Source: Desulfocicer vacuolatum DSM 3385
GTDB lineage: Bacteria; Desulfobacterota; Desulfobacteria; Desulfobacterales; Desulfobacteraceae
NCBI RefSeq assembly: GCF_900176365.1
Contig: NZ_FWXY01000001.1
Location: 124,001-188,000 of the forward strand
DNA: 64,000 nt
Direction: 5' to 3'
Positions within the stretch are counted from its first letter, which is position 1; every line of letters begins with the position of its first letter. Positions 48,791-63,642 of the stretch are shown here, piece after piece. The translations under genes were made by a program, and so were the position numbers. The notes under the pieces are model-generated. The model was not told the DNA's origin. It was given only the letters and a program-made list of their open reading frames with translations, and ran no database searches.

Positions 48791-48861
48791 AGCACACAAA
48801 CGGGCAACCCGGTTACAAACCATTTCCAATGCGGATGTTCAAGAAACAAAGGAGCTTTTCC

Positions 48862-50274
48862 ATGAAAACCCATAAGATGTGGGACATTCATTTTTTCAAT
48901 CAAATCCTTGACACCATGGCTGACGGTTTGTTCACTCTGGACAGCCACGGACAGATCACTTCATGGAATCGTGCCATGGAAGATCTCACCGGGTATACGG
49001 CAAAGGAGGCCTTGGGCAAAGGCTGTAATCTGCTCCAGTGCAATCGATGTTTTGGCAAAGACTGTCCTTCTGACATGAAAAAATGCGGTGTACTCAAACA
49101 CGGCACTTCAGAATCCAAAGAGTGTCATGTAAGGCACCGGGACGGCTATGATGTGCCTGTGATCAAAAGCGCCCGGGCAGTGAGGGATGAAAATGACACC
49201 CTTCTCGGCATTGTGGAAACCCTGACCAACCTCACAGAACTCAACCGCATGAAAAAAAAAGCCCAGGACGCAGAGCGGCGGCTGGGGGAAATCCATGCAC
49301 TGGGAAACATCATCGGCAAAAGCCGGGGCATGCAGGACGTTTTCTATGCCATTACAGCGGCGGCGGACAGCCGTGCCACCGTACTGATCCAGGGAGAAAG
49401 CGGCACCGGCAAAGAACTGGTGGCCGGTGCCATCCATTACAACGGTCAACTGTCCCAGGGGCCTTTTATTCCGGTGAACTGTGCGGCCCTGTCTGAAACC
49501 CTCTTGGAAAGCGAATTGTTTGGACACATTAAAGGAGCCTTTACCGGGGCCCATCGGGATCGAAAAGGACGGTTTGAAGAGGCCCACGGGGGCACCATTT
49601 TTCTGGATGAAATCGGAGAGCTTTCACCATACATGCAGGTTAAATTGCTCCGGGTGCTCCAGGAAAGGGAAATCCAGCGGGTGGGGGAATCCCGTAAAAT
49701 AAAAATCAATATCCGAATATTGGCAGCCACCCACAAGGATCTCTACCGCCTCACCCGGGAGGGGCAGTTCAGGGAAGATCTTTATTACCGACTCAAGGTT
49801 TTTCCCATCCATATCCCACCGCTTAAATCCCGGCGGGAGGACATTCCCCTGCTGGTGAGAAAATTCATTGATAAAAACAATGATCGGGAATCAAAAAAAA
49901 TCAAGGATATCAGTCGCAACGCCATGGCAAAGCTCATGGAATATCCCTGGCCCGGCAATGTGCGCGAACTTGAAAATGCCATAGAACACGCCTTTGTCCT
50001 GTGCCCGTCACAGCAAATTCAAACCCGGGATCTTCCCATTGAAGTCAGAGAAAAAAAAGAATGCCTTGAAATCCCCCCATCCGGGTCTGAATCGCCCATG
50101 CCTGCCACTGCCATGGGGGCTCAACCCAAACTGAACCGGGAAAATCTGATAACGCTTCTCCATGAATGCGGCTGGAACAAGGCCGAAGTGGGACGACGCA
50201 TGGGTAAAAGCCGAACTTCCGTGTGGAAATACATGAAAAAATGGCATATCCCCCTGCAGCCGGAAACCAAATAA
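48862..50274 (+). CDS. Sigma-54-dependent activator with Cys-rich PAS domain
   Basis: 470 aa from the ATG at 48862 (AAAGGAG 7 bases upstream; a longer ATG start at 48829 lacks a site). PAS at about 8-130 contains the insertion GCNLLQCNRCFGKDCPSDM followed by KKCG (five Cys within about 25 residues, near residues 52-78). AAA+ domain: Walker A GESGTGKE near residue 178, GAFTGA near residue 224, FLDEIGEL, and PWPGNVRELENAIEHA. A Fis-type HTH closes the protein (WNKAEVGRRMGKSRTSVWKYMKK). It is probably the output regulator of the kinase block, or it senses redox/metal state through the cysteines. Confidence 0.92.
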   Translation: MKTHKMWDIHFFNQILDTMADGLFTLDSHGQITSWNRAMEDLTGYTAKEALGKGCNLLQCNRCFGKDCPSDMKKCGVLKHGTSESKECHVRHRDGYDVPVIKSARAVRDENDTLLGIVETLTNLTELNRMKKKAQDAERRLGEIHALGNIIGKSRGMQDVFYAITAAADSRATVLIQGESGTGKELVAGAIHYNGQLSQGPFIPVNCAALSETLLESELFGHIKGAFTGAHRDRKGRFEEAHGGTIFLDEIGELSPYMQVKLLRVLQEREIQRVGESRKIKINIRILAATHKDLYRLTREGQFREDLYYRLKVFPIHIPPLKSRREDIPLLVRKFIDKNNDRESKKIKDISRNAMAKLMEYPWPGNVRELENAIEHAFVLCPSQQIQTRDLPIEVREKKECLEIPPSGSESPMPATAMGAQPKLNRENLITLLHECGWNKAEVGRRMGKSRTSVWKYMKKWHIPLQPETK

Positions 50275-55869: not shown

Positions 55870-56343
55870 CCCTTCACAATATCTATCCCCCTTAAACCGG
55901 GGCCGGGCGGGCAGCTATTTAAATATCGTCAAGCAGCACATGTTTTCCTCCTACAAAAAACGTGATTAAACGCCGATTAAAATAGCGCCCTTTTAAACAA
56001 ACACCGCCGTTTTCAGACACATGCCTGCCCGGCCCCAAATCACCACTTACACCCTAACACCACAACCTGTTCAGTGTGGTAAACTTAACAGTTTAAGTGA
56101 TCCAATTATCTTCTCCCCCATTGACCAGGCCCGAACCCCATTGGACCGATACCGGATGGTACCGATTGGGATTGGGAACGGACCGATCAATTTGATAGCC
56201 GAGGCTTTTCGACATTTTTTCCATATACAGTTCTTATGGATAGCTTAAAGTGACGATAAAGAAGAAATAGTTTTAAAACAATTTGCCCCGGTTTTGAGAA
56301 TATGCTAATTTAAATCTCATCAAAAATTATCATGGAGGTCCAA
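55870..56343. other. Gene-free region before the octaheme cytochrome gene
   Basis: Contains GGGGCCGGGCGGGCAG near 55902 with a matching CTGCCCGGCCCC near 56025, and three ACCGAT motifs at 56145, 56161 and 56182. No ORF is convincing. Confidence 0.45.
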
Positions 56344-57735
56344 ATGAAAATCATACCCATTATTGCAACAGCCTTTATCATTTCAGTTTATGGCACATCC
56401 TACGCCGATGTGGACCATTCAGAATTTATTGAGACCCAATGCCTCACAGGAGAAGATGTCACCCGCACCTGCCTGGAATGCCATGAAGAGACCGCAATGG
56501 AATTCATGGACACGGCCCACTGGATGTGGAAGGGCAAAACCCCCTATCTCAAAGGTCATGAAACAGATGGCCGATTTGGCAAAATCAACCTGATGAATGA
56601 TTACTGAGTGTCCATTGAATCCAATTGGTGCAGTTGCACCAAATGCCACGCCGGCTATGGATGGAAGGATGCCTCATTCGATTTTTCAGACATGGAAAAA
56701 ATGGACTGCCTCATCTGCCATGACACCACCGGTACCTATTCAAAGAAAAAAAACAGCTGCGGTATGCCCAACAAAGATCTTGACCTCACCGACATTGCAA
56801 AACAGGTGGGCCTTCCCGGCAGGGGTAACTGTGGAGAATGCCACTGGTATGGCGGGGGCGGTGACAATGCCAAACACGGAGATCTTGGAAGCGATCTTCT
56901 GACACCGGATGCCAGCCTTGACGTTCACATGGGCAAACTCGATTTTACCTGTCAAAAATGCCACGTAACAGATGCCCACAAAATAGCAGGCAGCAGCACC
57001 ACCTCTTCGGTGAGTGAGGGCCGGGTCTCCTGCACCGACTGCCATGATGAAAATCCCCATGACAGTTCCTTTCCCCTGTTAAGGAAACTAAATGAACACG
57101 GCATGGCCATGGCGTGTCAAACCTGCCACATTCCCCAATATGCGGTGAACAAATTTACCCTGACCTATCGGGACGGATCACGCATTTCAGACAAAACCGA
57201 AGTGGTGAGCCAGAGCCCCGATAAACGGGAACTCAAAACCCCCATGGGCCAGAAAATCCTGGAAAAAAATTTAAAGCCCTCCTATGCCTGGTACAATGGG
57301 AAACATCACAGATACATGAAAGGAGATCCGGTTGATCCCAAGGGCATCACACCATTAAATGCCCCGGATGGAACCATTAAAGATCCTTCAGCAAAAATTA
57401 CCCCCTACAAAATCATTAAAACCCGTCAGGCCATTGATGCCCGCCATGGATATCTCATTGTTCCCCATCTGGCCGGAAAAGACGGATTGATTTCAACCCA
57501 TGACTGGCAGGTCACCGCAGAAAAAGGCATGAAAGCCGCAGGCCTCAAGTTCAGCGGAGAAATCGCCTTTGCAGATACCATGATGTACTGGCGCCTGAAC
57601 CATGGCGTGGTTCCCAAGGAAAAAGCGCTGTCCTGTCTTGATTGTCACGGCCCCGAAGGTGTGATGGATTTCAAGGTCCTGGGATACAAAGGAGATCCCA
57701 TGGCCACGGGATGGCGATTTGCACCAGACAAATAA
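56344..57735 (+). CDS. Octaheme c-type cytochrome, tetrathionate-reductase family, selenoprotein with Sec88 at in-frame TGA
   Basis: 463 aa if the TGA at 56605-56607 is selenocysteine; start ATG at 56344 with GGAGG just before. Signal peptide about 1-21 (ending GTSYA). Eight CXXCH heme sites are present (the first four at residues 43, 98, 122 and 163; all CxxCH). NCGECHWYGGGGDNAKHGDL is the hallmark of octaheme tetrathionate reductase. The stop-free frame after TGA has no signal peptide or ribosome site of its own, and the first heme lies before it. By recall, the Shewanella enzyme has Cys64, Asp150 and Lys153 at its active heme. Sec88, Asp174 and Lys177 here have identical spacing (86 and 89). 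A SECIS-like hairpin lies 17 bases after the TGA. Probably periplasmic reduction of sulfur or nitrogen compounds. Confidence 0.9.
56625..56642 (+). promoter_or_regulatory. SECIS-like hairpin for Sec88
   Basis: TTGGTGC and GCACCAA form a perfect 7-bp stem around AGTT. A G is among the first two loop bases and the loop starts 24 bases past the TGA, both fitting the bacterial SECIS rule. Confidence 0.75.
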
Positions 57736-57894: not shown

Positions 57895-58554
57895 ATGAAC
57901 AATATATCATTTTCGGACATGGCCGTTGTTTCCTGCGGCACCATGCAAATGGAGCTGGAGTCCCTTAGAAAAGAGGGATTTCTTGATACAGAGCATCTGT
58001 TTTTCACCCCACCCGGTCTGCATCAGGATGTGGAAAAGCTGGAAGAACGGCTCATTGCCACCATTGACAGGGCCAAAAAAAAGGCAGATAAAATCATTGT
58101 GGTCTACGGCGGCAAGTTCTGTTACGTCAATGCCGACAACCCCACCCGGAACATGCAGGAGATCATTGAAGAACAAGGCCCGGGTGTGGCACGGATCGAT
58201 GCCACCCACTGCATGGATATGGTGGCAGATGAATCAGAGCTAAAGCGCATTGGTGAAGAACTTGCCGGTGGCGAACCGGTGTGGTGGATGACTCCCGGCT
58301 GGGTGAAATTCAAACATCAGGTGTTCAAGGGGTGGGACAAGGCCCTTGCCAATGAAAATTTTCCCCGTCACACCGGCGGTGCCATTGTACTGGACAGCAT
58401 TGGATTTATGGAGCAATACATGGAGACAGATCCGGAAGGCTTTCTGGAGTACTGCGACTGGATGGGGATTCCCATGCAGGCATACCCGGTGACCCTGGAT
58501 CGCTTTAAAGCCCTTCTCTCGGATCAGGCCCAGGTGTTAAACTCAGTCAAATAA
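57895..58554 (+). CDS. DUF1638-type protein
   Basis: 219 aa, AGGAG 9 bases before the ATG. The DUF1638 pattern is visible: VVSCGTMQMEL at the N-terminus, FFTPPGLHQDVEKLEERL near residue 40, KIIVVYGGKFC near residue 65, THCMDMVADESE near residue 103, and WWMTPGWVKFK near residue 130. The family is of unknown biochemistry and is often found beside corrinoid methyltransferase genes. Here it follows the octaheme cytochrome by 159 bases and sits some 0.5 kb from the RACo-like genes on the other strand. No signal peptide, so cytoplasmic. Confidence 0.85.
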   Translation: MNNISFSDMAVVSCGTMQMELESLRKEGFLDTEHLFFTPPGLHQDVEKLEERLIATIDRAKKKADKIIVVYGGKFCYVNADNPTRNMQEIIEEQGPGVARIDATHCMDMVADESELKRIGEELAGGEPVWWMTPGWVKFKHQVFKGWDKALANENFPRHTGGAIVLDSIGFMEQYMETDPEGFLEYCDWMGIPMQAYPVTLDRFKALLSDQAQVLNSVK

Positions 58555-58596: not shown

Positions 58597-58987
58597 AGAG
58601 CCTTTCCAAAAGATGCCGTCCCCCCGGGTAATGCACCCGGGCCGGGAGCGTAGACGGCTCAATTTGCCGGTTCTCATTAACCCTCGGGGGCCCTGCTGAG
58701 GGCAATTTAACGTTACTTTGTATATATCCTGTCGGACACAACGAATATAGCAAATGGTATTATACCGCCGCCCCCCGACGGGCAATGGGCCCGGACCGGA
58801 ACTGTAGACAGCTCAATTGTCCGGTTCCTATTACCCGTCGGGGGGCGGCTCTGCCTTAGCTTGCCTTGGAGGCTGAATTGTATATAACCGCCACGGGCGG
58901 ACCGTATTTTGATCCGGTACTGCCCACAACAAAGCTTGAAATATGCCTCTGATCTGCGGAGTATTTCATATAAAAAAACCACGGGCA
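58597..58987 (+). repeat. Composite repeat, copy K (two type 2 hairpins plus type 1)
   Basis: Diverged type 2 at 58615-58692 (CGTAGACGGCTCAATT loop), spacer CCTGTCGGACACAACGAATATAG, a full type 2 hairpin with 58767-58786 paired to 58830-58849, then a type 1 unit at about 58884-58974. It fills the gap between the convergent DUF1638 and 154-aa genes. Confidence 0.88.
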
Positions 58988-59013
58988 TCGGAAATAGTGA
59001 TTTTCAACCCGGG

Positions 59014-59495: not shown

Positions 59496-61076
59496 TTACC
59501 CCCCGTAAATACTCACCGACGGAAACAGAGATCGATCCGTATGGGGATAAAACTTGGCCCCGGAAAAGGTGTTCATGAAAGACTGATTCACATTAAGCTC
59601 AATATAAGTGATACTTTGCCCAATCATCCGGATCTCTTCAAAGGCATGGGGGTCCACAAGAAGCCGGGCCGCCCCACCCAGGGAAGAGTTACCCAGAACC
59701 TCAAATTTATCCAGGGGCATATCCGGCAGCATGCCGATGGAGATGGCAGATCTGGGATCGATAAAAGAGCCAAAGGTACCGGCCACGTAGAACTTTTCCA
59801 GTTCTTCAAAGGAGAGCCCCGCAGTCTGCCGGACAATGACCTCCAAAATGGAGTGCATGGCCGCCTTGGCACTGGTCAAGGAGTTTAAATCCACCTGGCT
59901 GAACAAAATTTCCCGGCCGGTGCCGGAATCTTCCCGTTTCACCAGGCAAAGATGCTGGATCTCATCTTTTTCAAAAAGCCTTTCCCCGCACCGTTCCGGG
60001 CTGAACTTGCCCCTGATATCCACCATGCCGGACAAAAAAAGCTGGGCTGCCAGATCAATCATGCCTGATCCGCAGATGCCCACAGGGGGTTTATTTTCAA
60101 TGGTACCAAGATCAATTTCAAGGGTATCAATATCAATGGACACCCGGTCAATCACGCCGGGCCCTGCGGTCATGCCCATGTCACTGATGCCCCCTTCCAG
60201 GGCAGGGCCCGCAGCCCCGGCACACGCCATGAGCCAATCCCGGTTTCCCACCACCACTTCAGCATTGGTGCCCACATCCACCATGAGACAGGGATTTTCC
60301 TTTTTATGGAGCTGTGCAAATAAAATCCCGGCAATGAGATCCCCCCCAAAATAGGAGCCGATATTGGGAAATAAAAACACCATGCCATGGGGGTGCATCC
60401 CAAGGCCTGCATCACCGGCGGCCATGGATTCCGGGGCATTCACCGCCGGAATATAAGGTTCCCGTATGATAAAAGAGGGCTCAATGCCCAGAAACAGATG
60501 GGTCATGGCGGTGTTGCCGGCCCCGGTGAACAGATACACAGATTCCACACCCAGCCCCGCAGCATGCACAAGCTTTTTGATGTGCCGGTTCATGCCGTCA
60601 ATGATCAGGGCCTGCATCTGTTCAAGCCCTTTGGGGTCCCGGGCATGGTGAATCCTTGTCAACACATCGGGCCCCAGGGCAATCTGGGGATTATCAAACC
60701 CCAGTTCCCCAAGATTGGCACCTGTTTCCAGATTCACCAGGCGAAGCACCACCCGGGTGGTGCCAAGATCCGCTGCCACCCCGCACACCGGCTGGGTTAA
60801 TTCCGGATCTATGACAGCAATCACCCGCCACCCCCGGGAATCTTTAAACAGCACCACCTTGATGCAATGTCCCCATTGGCGAAGCTGCCGGGCAAGATCC
60901 GGCACCAAATGCGGTGGAAAATACACCGATGAATCCTTTGGGGCGTTTCCCTTCTGTTCCAGGTCATGGGAAAGGGCTGATACCAGGCGCTCCACATCTG
61001 CGGTGTTGTTACCCAGGCGTGGCTCTTTCACCTGTATTGTGCGAACAAATCCGTTGATATTTTCCACCGTTGTCAT
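59496..61076 (-). CDS. RACo-type corrinoid-activation ATPase lacking the ferredoxin domain
   Basis: 526 aa. From about residue 95 it has the ASKHA/DUF4445 fold of reductive activators of corrinoid proteins: GVAADLGTTRVVLRLVN (phosphate 1), GAGNTAMTHLFLGIEP, YFGGDLIAGILFA, MVDVGTNAEVVVGN, GAAGPALEGG, and VAGTFGSFIDP. The N-terminal [2Fe-2S] domain of the family is absent; residues 1-90 are an unrelated mixed segment without a cysteine cluster. The start codon overlaps the stop of the upstream full-length paralogue by one base (TGATG). It may act as a partner or regulator of that protein; it cannot deliver electrons by itself (inference). Confidence 0.88.
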   Translation of the reverse strand: MTTVENINGFVRTIQVKEPRLGNNTADVERLVSALSHDLEQKGNAPKDSSVYFPPHLVPDLARQLRQWGHCIKVVLFKDSRGWRVIAVIDPELTQPVCGVAADLGTTRVVLRLVNLETGANLGELGFDNPQIALGPDVLTRIHHARDPKGLEQMQALIIDGMNRHIKKLVHAAGLGVESVYLFTGAGNTAMTHLFLGIEPSFIIREPYIPAVNAPESMAAGDAGLGMHPHGMVFLFPNIGSYFGGDLIAGILFAQLHKKENPCLMVDVGTNAEVVVGNRDWLMACAGAAGPALEGGISDMGMTAGPGVIDRVSIDIDTLEIDLGTIENKPPVGICGSGMIDLAAQLFLSGMVDIRGKFSPERCGERLFEKDEIQHLCLVKREDSGTGREILFSQVDLNSLTSAKAAMHSILEVIVRQTAGLSFEELEKFYVAGTFGSFIDPRSAISIGMLPDMPLDKFEVLGNSSLGGAARLLVDPHAFEEIRMIGQSITYIELNVNQSFMNTFSGAKFYPHTDRSLFPSVSIYGG

Positions 61077-63037
61077 CAGGATGCCTGCCTTGCCCGGGTC
61101 TTTTCCTGGAGCCGTTTATGGAGCCGTGGAAAATAATTGAGCTCTGTGTGGGGTAAAAACAATGCTCCCACATAATGATCCATGTATGAAGGGGTTTCAG
61201 CCAATTCAAAGTTGGTCATCATCTCCACCACATCCACCACATCCCGGCGAAGCACATTGGTCAAAGAACTCATGCGGGCCCCCAAAAGGGAGCTGTTGCC
61301 CAGATAGACCACCTGTTCCGGATCAACCTCGGGCAGCAACCCGATGGTCATGGCTTTTTCAAGATCCACATAACTGCCAAATCCACCGGCAAGGATAATC
61401 ACCTCAATGTCCTGGATGGTGAGCCCCACCTCCTCCAGCAAGGTCAAAGCACCACTGTACATGGCACCCTTGGCCCGGATGAGATTGTCAATGTCCGGCT
61501 CGGTGATGACAATGTCCCTGTCAATCTGTGTGGCATCCTTCCACACCAGTACATACTCCCAGATCTCTTCTCTCTGGCGAATACGATCTGTGTTCAAATT
61601 ACGATTGAATTTACCACGGTTATCAATGACACCGTTTTCAAACAGCAACGCCACAATGGTAATAAGACCGGACCCGCAGATCCCCTTGGGTCTGACATTG
61701 CCCTTGGTGACAATCATGGGTTCACAGGAGATGGGATCAATGGAAAAATCCTCAATGGCCCCTTTTGCAGCCCGCATGCCAAAGGTGATACCCCCGCCTT
61801 CAAAGGCAGGTCCGGCAGAACAGGCGGTACAGGCCATCCAGTCCTTGTTGCCGATGACAATCTCGGCATTGGTGCCGATGTCCATGAAAAGGGTCAGTTT
61901 TTCTGATTTATACATACCGGCCCCCATGACACCGGCCACAATGTCGCCCCCCACATAACTTGACACACCGGGATAAATAAGGGCCTGGGCATGGGGGGCC
62001 AGATCAATGCCAAGGCTTTGGGCATGGAACGGCGGGTACATAATGGCCGCCGGCACATAGGGCGCTCTTCTGACATACCGGGGATTAATCCCTAAAAGCA
62101 GCTGGGTCATGGTGGTATTACCGGCCAGGGTGATGGTGGTAATACACTCGCGTTTGACTTTTCCCCTTTTAAAAATACGGTCCAGGACGCCGTTAATGGT
62201 TTCCACCACCCTTTTTTGAAGGGTGGCAAGGCCGTCCCCTTTTTCGGAAAACATGATCCGGGATATCACATCTTCGCCATAACTGATCTGCCCGTTGAAG
62301 TCTCCATATTCCGAAACCACCTCTCCGGTATTCAGATCCAGGAGTTGACCGTATATGGTGGTGGTACCGATATCCATGGCCACAGAGTAATTGCAGTCTG
62401 TGGTATCACCGGCCTCTATATTAACAATCTGATTTTTACCGTCTTCCCGCACCGGGCGAACAATGGTGGCGGTGACTTCAAATTTTTTTTCCCGGAAGAC
62501 ATCGGGCACCTTTCGCATGACATCTAAATCCACTCCCAGGCGATGCTCATCATATTGCACCTTAAGATGCTGGATCAAACGGGTGACATCGGCAATATTA
62601 TCCTGGGCAGAGGGCTCAGGCAATTTGAGATATTTTTTCTCCACCGGAGGAATCAACAGCCCTTTTTCCTTGAGATCTTCAAAACTGAAACTCTTTACCC
62701 GGGCCGTGTGGCGGGGGGCCGTATGTTTATTTAAAACAGAGGCATCCACCTCTGATTCCACAGGAACCCTTATTACCACATCGGATTTCACCTGGGAAAG
62801 GCAGGCCAGGCGGTAACCGTGTTCCCTGTCCTCGGTGGAAAGCTTATCCAGGCCACCGCCTTCAAGGTCACCGGATTCCACCAAAATTCGACACTTACCG
62901 CACACCCCTTCCCCACCGCAGGAGGCATTGATGTGTACCCCGGCTTCCATGGCCGCCCGGAGTAAATTTTCACCGTCTGCAACTGAGATCTCTTTTCCAT
63001 GGGGTTGAAACAAAATTTTATGGGTTTTCAGACTCAT
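61076..63037 (-). CDS. RACo-like reductive activator of corrinoid iron-sulfur protein, full length
   Basis: 653 aa from the ATG at 63035-63037, with AGGAG 5 bases upstream. N-terminal plant-type [2Fe-2S] ferredoxin domain (CGGEGVCGKCR near residue 40, and Cys in RLACLSQ near residue 78), a linker and middle domain (about 90-215), then the ASKHA ATPase: SVAMDIGTTTIYGQLLDL, LAGNTTMTQLLLGINP, YVGGDIVAGVMGAG, MDIGTNAEIVIGN, ACSAGPAFEGGG, GICGSGLI, and ILAGGFGSYVD. The family uses ATP to reduce inactive Co(II) corrinoid to Co(I). With AcsCD in the same window, the corrinoid iron-sulfur protein is the natural client. Confidence 0.93.
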   Translation of the reverse strand: MSLKTHKILFQPHGKEISVADGENLLRAAMEAGVHINASCGGEGVCGKCRILVESGDLEGGGLDKLSTEDREHGYRLACLSQVKSDVVIRVPVESEVDASVLNKHTAPRHTARVKSFSFEDLKEKGLLIPPVEKKYLKLPEPSAQDNIADVTRLIQHLKVQYDEHRLGVDLDVMRKVPDVFREKKFEVTATIVRPVREDGKNQIVNIEAGDTTDCNYSVAMDIGTTTIYGQLLDLNTGEVVSEYGDFNGQISYGEDVISRIMFSEKGDGLATLQKRVVETINGVLDRIFKRGKVKRECITTITLAGNTTMTQLLLGINPRYVRRAPYVPAAIMYPPFHAQSLGIDLAPHAQALIYPGVSSYVGGDIVAGVMGAGMYKSEKLTLFMDIGTNAEIVIGNKDWMACTACSAGPAFEGGGITFGMRAAKGAIEDFSIDPISCEPMIVTKGNVRPKGICGSGLITIVALLFENGVIDNRGKFNRNLNTDRIRQREEIWEYVLVWKDATQIDRDIVITEPDIDNLIRAKGAMYSGALTLLEEVGLTIQDIEVIILAGGFGSYVDLEKAMTIGLLPEVDPEQVVYLGNSSLLGARMSSLTNVLRRDVVDVVEMMTNFELAETPSYMDHYVGALFLPHTELNYFPRLHKRLQEKTRARQAS

Positions 63038-63277
63038 ACATTCTCCTGATTTTTTAACAACAGCCCCCAGTGTCACATGGTCTGTCGTCTGTTTAAAAGG
63101 TCTATTTTCTTACGTATAAATTCCACGTGACATGTCTGTCCCGGTAACTTCCTGCATTTTCCCCACCCCATGTGTATAATCCCTTCCCCAAATAATATCC
63201 AGTCTTTTTAACTCAATTTTCAAACCCGGATTCATTGGCACCGTAGCAACATTTTGCCCAGCTACTTTATATTTTTT

Positions 63278-63370
63278 TTTATATGAAATACTCCGCAAAC
63301 TTGTGGAGCTTTTCTGTCTTTGTTGTGGGCAGAACCGAATCAGAATAAGGACTGCCCGTGGCAGTTTATA
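63278..63370 (-). repeat. Type 1 repeat, copy L (minus orientation)
   Basis: One complete unit read on the minus strand: CTGCCACGGGCAG, hairpin with TTCGGTTCTGCCC, CACAACAAAG, and the GCTCC...GGAGTATTTCATATAAA hairpin. Confidence 0.85.
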
Positions 63371-63642
63371 TAAATCCAGAACCTCCTTTATTTGCTGTAT
63401 TTTATTCATTGCGATTATCATAAAGACCTTGCTTTTACAAGTTTATGCTCATATAGTGGTTAAACACTGTTTAGTATTGACGTATTTTATTTTTATGCAT
63501 ATGACTCATAATCAAAGGACCACCCATTGGAATATCACCGTAGCAAGTCAAACATACTATACTAATTTTCGACATTAACGGATTTACAGGGAATTTGGCC
63601 TGTATGATTGCATTTTTGTCAATGCGGCACTGTCTCTTTTTT

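Follow-up and report, generated by a model that had tools for sequence, protein, structure and literature searches.

Described octaheme cytochromes and selenocytochromes

The closest described relative of the protein studied here is the octaheme tetrathionate reductase (OTR) of Shewanella oneidensis, represented by the structure 1sp3 and the protein family TIGR04315. PMC4484225 reports tetrathionate, nitrite, and hydroxylamine activity for this enzyme and names heme II as the catalytic heme. A selenocysteine (Sec)-containing member of the family has also been listed. In Table 1 of a 2026 review (PMC13188914), TIGR04315 appears among the selenoprotein families, marked as annotated in GenBank, with one Sec and no Sec motif, under the name "Tetrathionate reductase family octaheme c-type cytochrome" (WP_331457571.1). 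Proteins of this kind are therefore already catalogued, although the original prediction knew of no described Sec-containing member of the family. The entry shares the family and the single Sec with the protein described below.

In the accessible text of that review, the words octaheme and tetrathionate occur once each. Our search covered the open-licence literature. There, the review was the only source found for TIGR04315 and, in the text accessible, the only one found to tie OTR to Sec. The accessible text of the same literature yielded no statement or test of Sec standing at the position of the OTR active-site cysteine, and neither "Cys64" with tetrathionate reductase nor "octahaem" with selenoprotein was found in it. 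The Desulfobacterium autotrophicum genome paper mentions neither octaheme nor tetrathionate in its main text, and the main text of the deep-Sep paper contains none of the words cytochrome, heme, and tetrathionate.

Another multiheme c-type cytochrome with an in-frame TGA is ExtKL of Geobacter (NF040886), a five-heme selenocytochrome according to the accessible parts of PMC1914089 and PMC5877670. It differs from the present protein in having five rather than eight hemes, and the two belong to separate families: NF040886 is absent from the four NCBIfam matches of our protein at E ≤0.001.

An octaheme cytochrome gene with an in-frame TGA

The window, by which we mean the whole 64,000-nucleotide stretch of DNA analyzed, comes from Desulfocicer vacuolatum DSM 3385, a member of the Desulfobacterales, a group known for sulfate reducers. 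It carries a gene for a predicted selenocysteine-containing OTR homologue, here termed Sec-OTR, with the following features (window positions):

56334-56338, + strand: ribosome-binding site GGAGG, 5 nt 5' of the ATG, read directly from the sequence
56344-57735, + strand: Sec-OTR gene, 463 codons with TGA taken as Sec, then TAA
56344-56409, + strand: putative signal peptide, approximately residues 1-22, called by eye from the hydrophobic N-terminus without a predictor
56470-56484, + strand: heme 1 motif C43-L-E-C-H47, the only CXXCH upstream of the TGA
56605-56607, + strand: TGA codon, predicted Sec88, aligned to Cys64 of 1sp3
56625-56642, + strand: SECIS-like hairpin TTGGTGC-AGTT-GCACCAA, with a 7-bp stem (56625-56631 and 56636-56642) and the loop AGTT (56632-56635)
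56635-56649, + strand: heme 2 motif C98-T-K-C-H102, by homology the catalytic heme; the 3' arm of the hairpin falls in the first codons of the motif
56863-56865, + strand: Asp174, aligned to Asp150 of 1sp3
56872-56874, + strand: Lys177, aligned to Lys153 of 1sp3
57634-57648, + strand: heme 8 motif C431-L-D-C-H435, read from the translation

Between the ATG at 56344 and the TAA at 57733-57735, the TGA at 56605-56607 is the single in-frame stop, and the frame is continuous only through it, as originally proposed. The first residues of the CXXCH motifs are 43, 98, 122, 163, 203, 230, 258, and 431, so that one motif precedes the TGA and seven follow it. This confirms the predicted layout, in which a first part holds the putative signal peptide and heme 1, and the remainder holds hemes 2-8. 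When the window was scanned for genes broken by one TGA, 11 places were recovered, and only the Sec-OTR gene looked selenoprotein-like by eye.

The TGA falls on the active-site cysteine of OTR

The translated protein matched TIGR04315 (tetrathionate reductase family octaheme c-type cytochrome, NCBIfam) over residues 23-448, scoring 477.8 bits and thus above the cut-off of 375, with its eight CXXCH motifs in register with the family, and Pfam assigned four cytochrome c domain families to it. Its best PDB sequence match was 1sp3, the Shewanella octaheme cytochrome (E 2.6e-118). Counting along this alignment, U88, D174, and K177 fall on chain residues Cys64, Asp150, and Lys153; the spacing of these residues, as given in the original prediction, is exact.

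An AF2 model computed with 57 aligned proteins reached a pLDDT of 90.1, with residues 1-21 below 50; a single-sequence run (pLDDT 30.4) was discarded. The only strong PDB fold match of the model was again 1sp3 (Z 43.9, rmsd 2.0 over 417 residues), which was also the sole Foldseek match at E <0.001. The next fold match, hydroxylamine oxidoreductase (HAO), is likewise an octaheme protein, with a Tyr-crosslinked P460 as its catalytic heme, but it scored only Z 3.3.

We take Cys64 and Lys153 of the Shewanella enzyme to be active-site residues, and the lysine at position 153 is presumably a ligand of the active-site heme. Sec88 sits ten residues N-terminal of the heme 2 motif, and homology to 1sp3 is predicted to place it beside heme 2 together with Lys177 and Asp174. 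Both this distance and the alignment with Cys64 support the proposal that Sec replaces the active-site Cys of OTR. Overall, Sec-OTR and the Shewanella enzyme have in common the eight hemes, the fold, and the equivalents of Lys153 and Asp150. They differ in that the latter has Cys64, with Pro at position +8 relative to it, whereas Sec-OTR has Sec88, with Cys at +8.

Codon usage at column 88 across homologues

Homologues were drawn from 7 loci on searched contigs, from relatives' genomes (72 of 98 matching at E ≤1e-20), and from a phylum survey, in which 80 of 395 genomes had a match at E ≤1e-40. We compared the DNA of 166 matches, the Sec-OTR gene and two duplicates included; many weaker matches in relatives' genomes and one phylum match (G186) fall outside this set. 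The codon at column 88 was TGA in 68 loci, TGC in 59, TGT in 37, ACT in one, and GCC in one. Thus, 164 of the 166 loci carry TGA or a Cys codon (the latter in 96), the exceptions being L118 (Thr) and L157 (Ala). After removing the two duplicates, TGA remains in 66 of 164. The cysteine expected in homologues at this column was therefore found. In a tblastn search of a plasmid collection, five records were recovered, four from Paracoccus and one from Photobacterium, at approximately 36% identity.

Among the 166 matches, a stop elsewhere within the aligned stretch occurred only in L080. This minus-strand OTR homologue has extra in-frame TGAs and a two-piece alignment, and may represent a decayed copy or an assembly fault. 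A distant relative, L169 (31% identity), has a TGA at the aligned column (439-441) and no hairpin by the criteria given below; it is an uncertain Sec candidate.

Eight loci at 54-63% identity (L001-L007 and L009) share the TGA of the Sec-OTR gene, all of them with the hairpin, although that of L002 has only five pairs. This recurrence bears on the idea that the TGA is a sequencing error for TGC or TGT. The assembly is indeed a draft of 80 contigs, but the same error in eight loci at such identities is scarcely credible, and we rejected this explanation.

A SECIS-like hairpin accompanies the TGA

The original prediction placed a 7-bp hairpin with a G-containing loop at SECIS distance. The hairpin at 56625-56642 matches this description, with a loop that begins 24 nt after the TGA. 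Across the family, we scored a hairpin when the stem had at least 7 pairs and a G occurred in the first two loop bases. The loop was allowed to begin anywhere from 13 to 37 nt past the codon, in the control as in the Sec and Cys groups. Before the tree and hairpin counts, L059, L070, and L080 (short) and the duplicates L084 (of L001) and L085 were left out; L118 and L157 were kept in the tree, outside the Sec/Cys counts. By these criteria, 62 of 64 Sec genes had the hairpin, compared with 3 of 95 Cys genes and 1096 of 27,167 control codon positions of Sec genes (4.0%); the rows within the Sec and Cys groups are related, so their counts are of non-independent events. Among the hairpin-bearing Sec genes, 28 have a loop that starts 20 nt downstream of the TGA and 34 have one that starts 24 nt downstream. 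Two forms of the hairpin were apparent: GCAACGA-GGC-TCGTTGC, in 28 rows with 19 distinct windows, and, mostly, yTGGTGC-AGkT-GCACCAr, in 35 rows with 34 distinct windows, including the Sec-OTR gene. Compensatory change was scarce, with T-A in place of C-G at the outer pair in three rows.

Hairpin stability relative to synonymous shuffles gave a mean z of -1.69 for the 64 Sec rows vs. -0.20 for the 95 Cys rows (Mann-Whitney p 3.9e-15, with rows not independent). The Sec-OTR gene alone was not unusually stable by this measure (z -0.37, fraction 0.375), since its peptide already favors the hairpin. The case for the hairpin is thus a case from the family and not from this gene alone. An Rfam scan of 56560-56720 at E ≤10 returned no SECIS; its two matches were of snoRNA type and fell far short of the gathering scores. 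A genome search with SECIS_1 (RF00031) gave no match here, nor in any of 14 controls. Of the predicted SECIS element, then, the hairpin stood, in that it tracks the TGA genes, while a match to the Rfam models did not materialize.

The heme 2 attachment motif begins with C98-T99-K100, and the codons for these three residues contain the 3' arm of the hairpin (56636-56642). Residue +8 is Cys in 35 of the Sec rows, Ala in 28, and Gly in one, and Pro in 56 of the 95 Cys rows. Arginine at +9 is encoded by AGG (29) or CGT (28) in 57 Sec rows; in 61 Cys rows, the codons are CGC (37), CGT (8), CGG (7), CGA (6), AGA (2), and AGG (1). These codon patterns indicate that the hairpin goes with Cys or Ala rather than Pro at +8, and that it fixes the Arg codon at +9. 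A SECIS-like hairpin laid over a heme-attachment motif would be a clear case of an RNA signal and a protein function sharing the same codons.

The same data weigh on the reading of the TGA as a stop, which would make the locus a pseudogene or a split gene with its second part starting at GTG 56608. In the mechanical ORF list, this GTG, right after the TGA, does open a 375-aa ORF, but its product would have no signal peptide and no heme 1. Moreover, the TGA recurs in homologues with the protein conserved on either side of it, and nearly all of the TGA genes retained for counting have the hairpin. We therefore rejected this reading as very improbable. For annotation, the consequence is that Sec-OTR genes appear as two ORFs in such a list unless the TGA is read through.

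Sec machinery in the genome

The components of Sec insertion named in the original prediction were all found in the genome: selA (609 bits), selB (380 bits, cut-off 242), selD, which itself contains one TGA, and a tRNA-Sec with anticodon tca. Among the homologue genomes, 59 had a TGA copy, and selA was found in 56 of these, compared with 75 of the 77 in which only non-TGA copies were seen; the three TGA-copy genomes with no selA match have listed completeness values of 84, 90, and 81. The presence of selA is consistent with Sec without distinguishing Sec genomes from Cys genomes.

Taken together, the sequence evidence for Sec in place of Cys beside the catalytic heme is very strong. We regard Sec insertion at the active-site column of OTR as nearly certain, and the insertion combined with the assigned position as highly probable.

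Sec/Cys changes on the tree

We built a quick tree of 162 rows with column 88 masked, using SH-aLRT support only; several of its branches are weakly supported. On this tree, at least 9 changes between Sec and Cys are required, where 300 label shuffles gave a minimum of 39 and a mean of 50.4. The clade that contains the Sec-OTR gene has 11 rows, all of them Sec, and a support of 100. For hairpins whose loop starts at 24 nt, a single origin was rejected (p-AU 3.8e-07); the test used a 64-row subset that included 1sp3 and forced 19 of the 35 rows of this type into one clade. As these rows do not form one clade, convergence, ancestral retention, and local gene conversion are the available readings. 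Convergence of the hairpin is plausible, because the codons conserved near +7 and from +10 to +12 may already partly pair.

Sec and Cys forms occur even within one genus code (g7), in which L058, L060, and L062 have Sec, and L065 and L057 have Cys. The latter two keep the Sec-type peptide SNEAR with altered third codon bases in the hairpin, which looks like a recent loss of Sec; a possible fossil SECIS, left by a change from Sec to Cys, is preserved in them. With a single multiheme enzyme occurring naturally in both Sec and Cys forms, two matters become testable: the effect of a selenolate beside a catalytic heme, and the purpose of Cys64 in OTR.

A proposed role for Sec88 at the catalytic heme

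The gene product, an OTR-family octaheme c-type cytochrome, would be soluble and exported. UGA 56605-56607 would be decoded as Sec by SelB and tRNA-Sec under the guidance of the hairpin, as the sequence and the family comparison suggest. After export and heme attachment, Sec88 would come to lie next to heme 2, along with Lys177 and Asp174. In the mechanism that we consider most likely, periplasmic cytochromes would supply electrons that travel through the chain of hemes to heme 2. There, the selenolate could serve as a stronger nucleophile or redox partner than Cys, with a lower pKa. The substrate reduced in this way might be a small molecule containing a bond of the S-S, S-O, N-O, or Se-O type.

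A direct catalytic role of Sec88 is likely on our assessment; the altered sulfur, nitrogen, or selenium chemistry named in the original prediction is an inference only. An inserted Sec88 might instead be non-catalytic, shaping the pocket, tuning or gating the Lys-ligated heme, or protecting against over-oxidation. Variation at Asp174 fits such a role: its equivalent is Asp in 148 of 166 loci, and Asn in L001 and L002, which belong to the same clade as Sec-OTR. The many loci that manage with Cys fit it as well, and both observations imply that Sec is not essential to the fold. Against it, column 88 is almost invariably Cys or Sec, beside an equivalent of Lys177 that is Lys in 166 of 166 loci, and Sec is costly and typically found at reactive positions. 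We consider a non-catalytic Sec88 unlikely. If Sec88 is instead catalytic, one may speculate further, and only tentatively, about a class of heme-selenolate reductases in which S-S, N-O, or Se-O bonds are attacked by a selenolate at the catalytic heme. Several gains of Sec in this class would have come about via near-identical SECIS hairpins in the attachment codons of that heme, with the hairpin forcing changes in the protein.

Genomic neighborhood and paralogues

A DESULF_POR1 porin gene lies 474 nt upstream of the Sec-OTR gene on the same strand, and a DUF1638 gene (57895-58554, same strand) lies 159 nt downstream. Two adjacent genes for RACo/AcsV-like corrinoid activators occupy 59496-63076 on the opposite strand. 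A candidate regulator is found further upstream:

48829-50274, + strand: PAS-sigma54 activator, approximately 6 kb upstream of the Sec-OTR gene

This activator is 59-66% identical to regulators located approximately 0.6 kb or less from the Sec-OTR gene in L001, L003, L006, and L009. Of the 11 loci compared in the Sec-OTR clade, 5 have such an activator nearby, the present locus included; the flanks of L086 and L087 comprised only 1.5 kb in this comparison. Regulation of Sec-OTR by this activator is possible. Within the window, the sigma-54 promoter consensus at two mismatches matched 38 times vs. 43.9 expected, which gives no evidence of a sigma-54 promoter. The PAS part of the activator contains a Cys-rich segment, CNRCFGKDC.

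The same genome has a second Sec-OTR paralogue, L044 (contig C32, 2797-6092), with nine CXXCH motifs in its translated part. It lies directly behind a gene for an NrfD/HybB-like membrane subunit, with which it possibly forms a quinone-linked OTR complex. A third OTR copy, L045, has Cys. Elsewhere in the window, ORFs at approximately 58909-59000 and approximately 63300-63420 encode a similar peptide (CPQQ...SLRSISYKK), which suggests an interspersed repeat.
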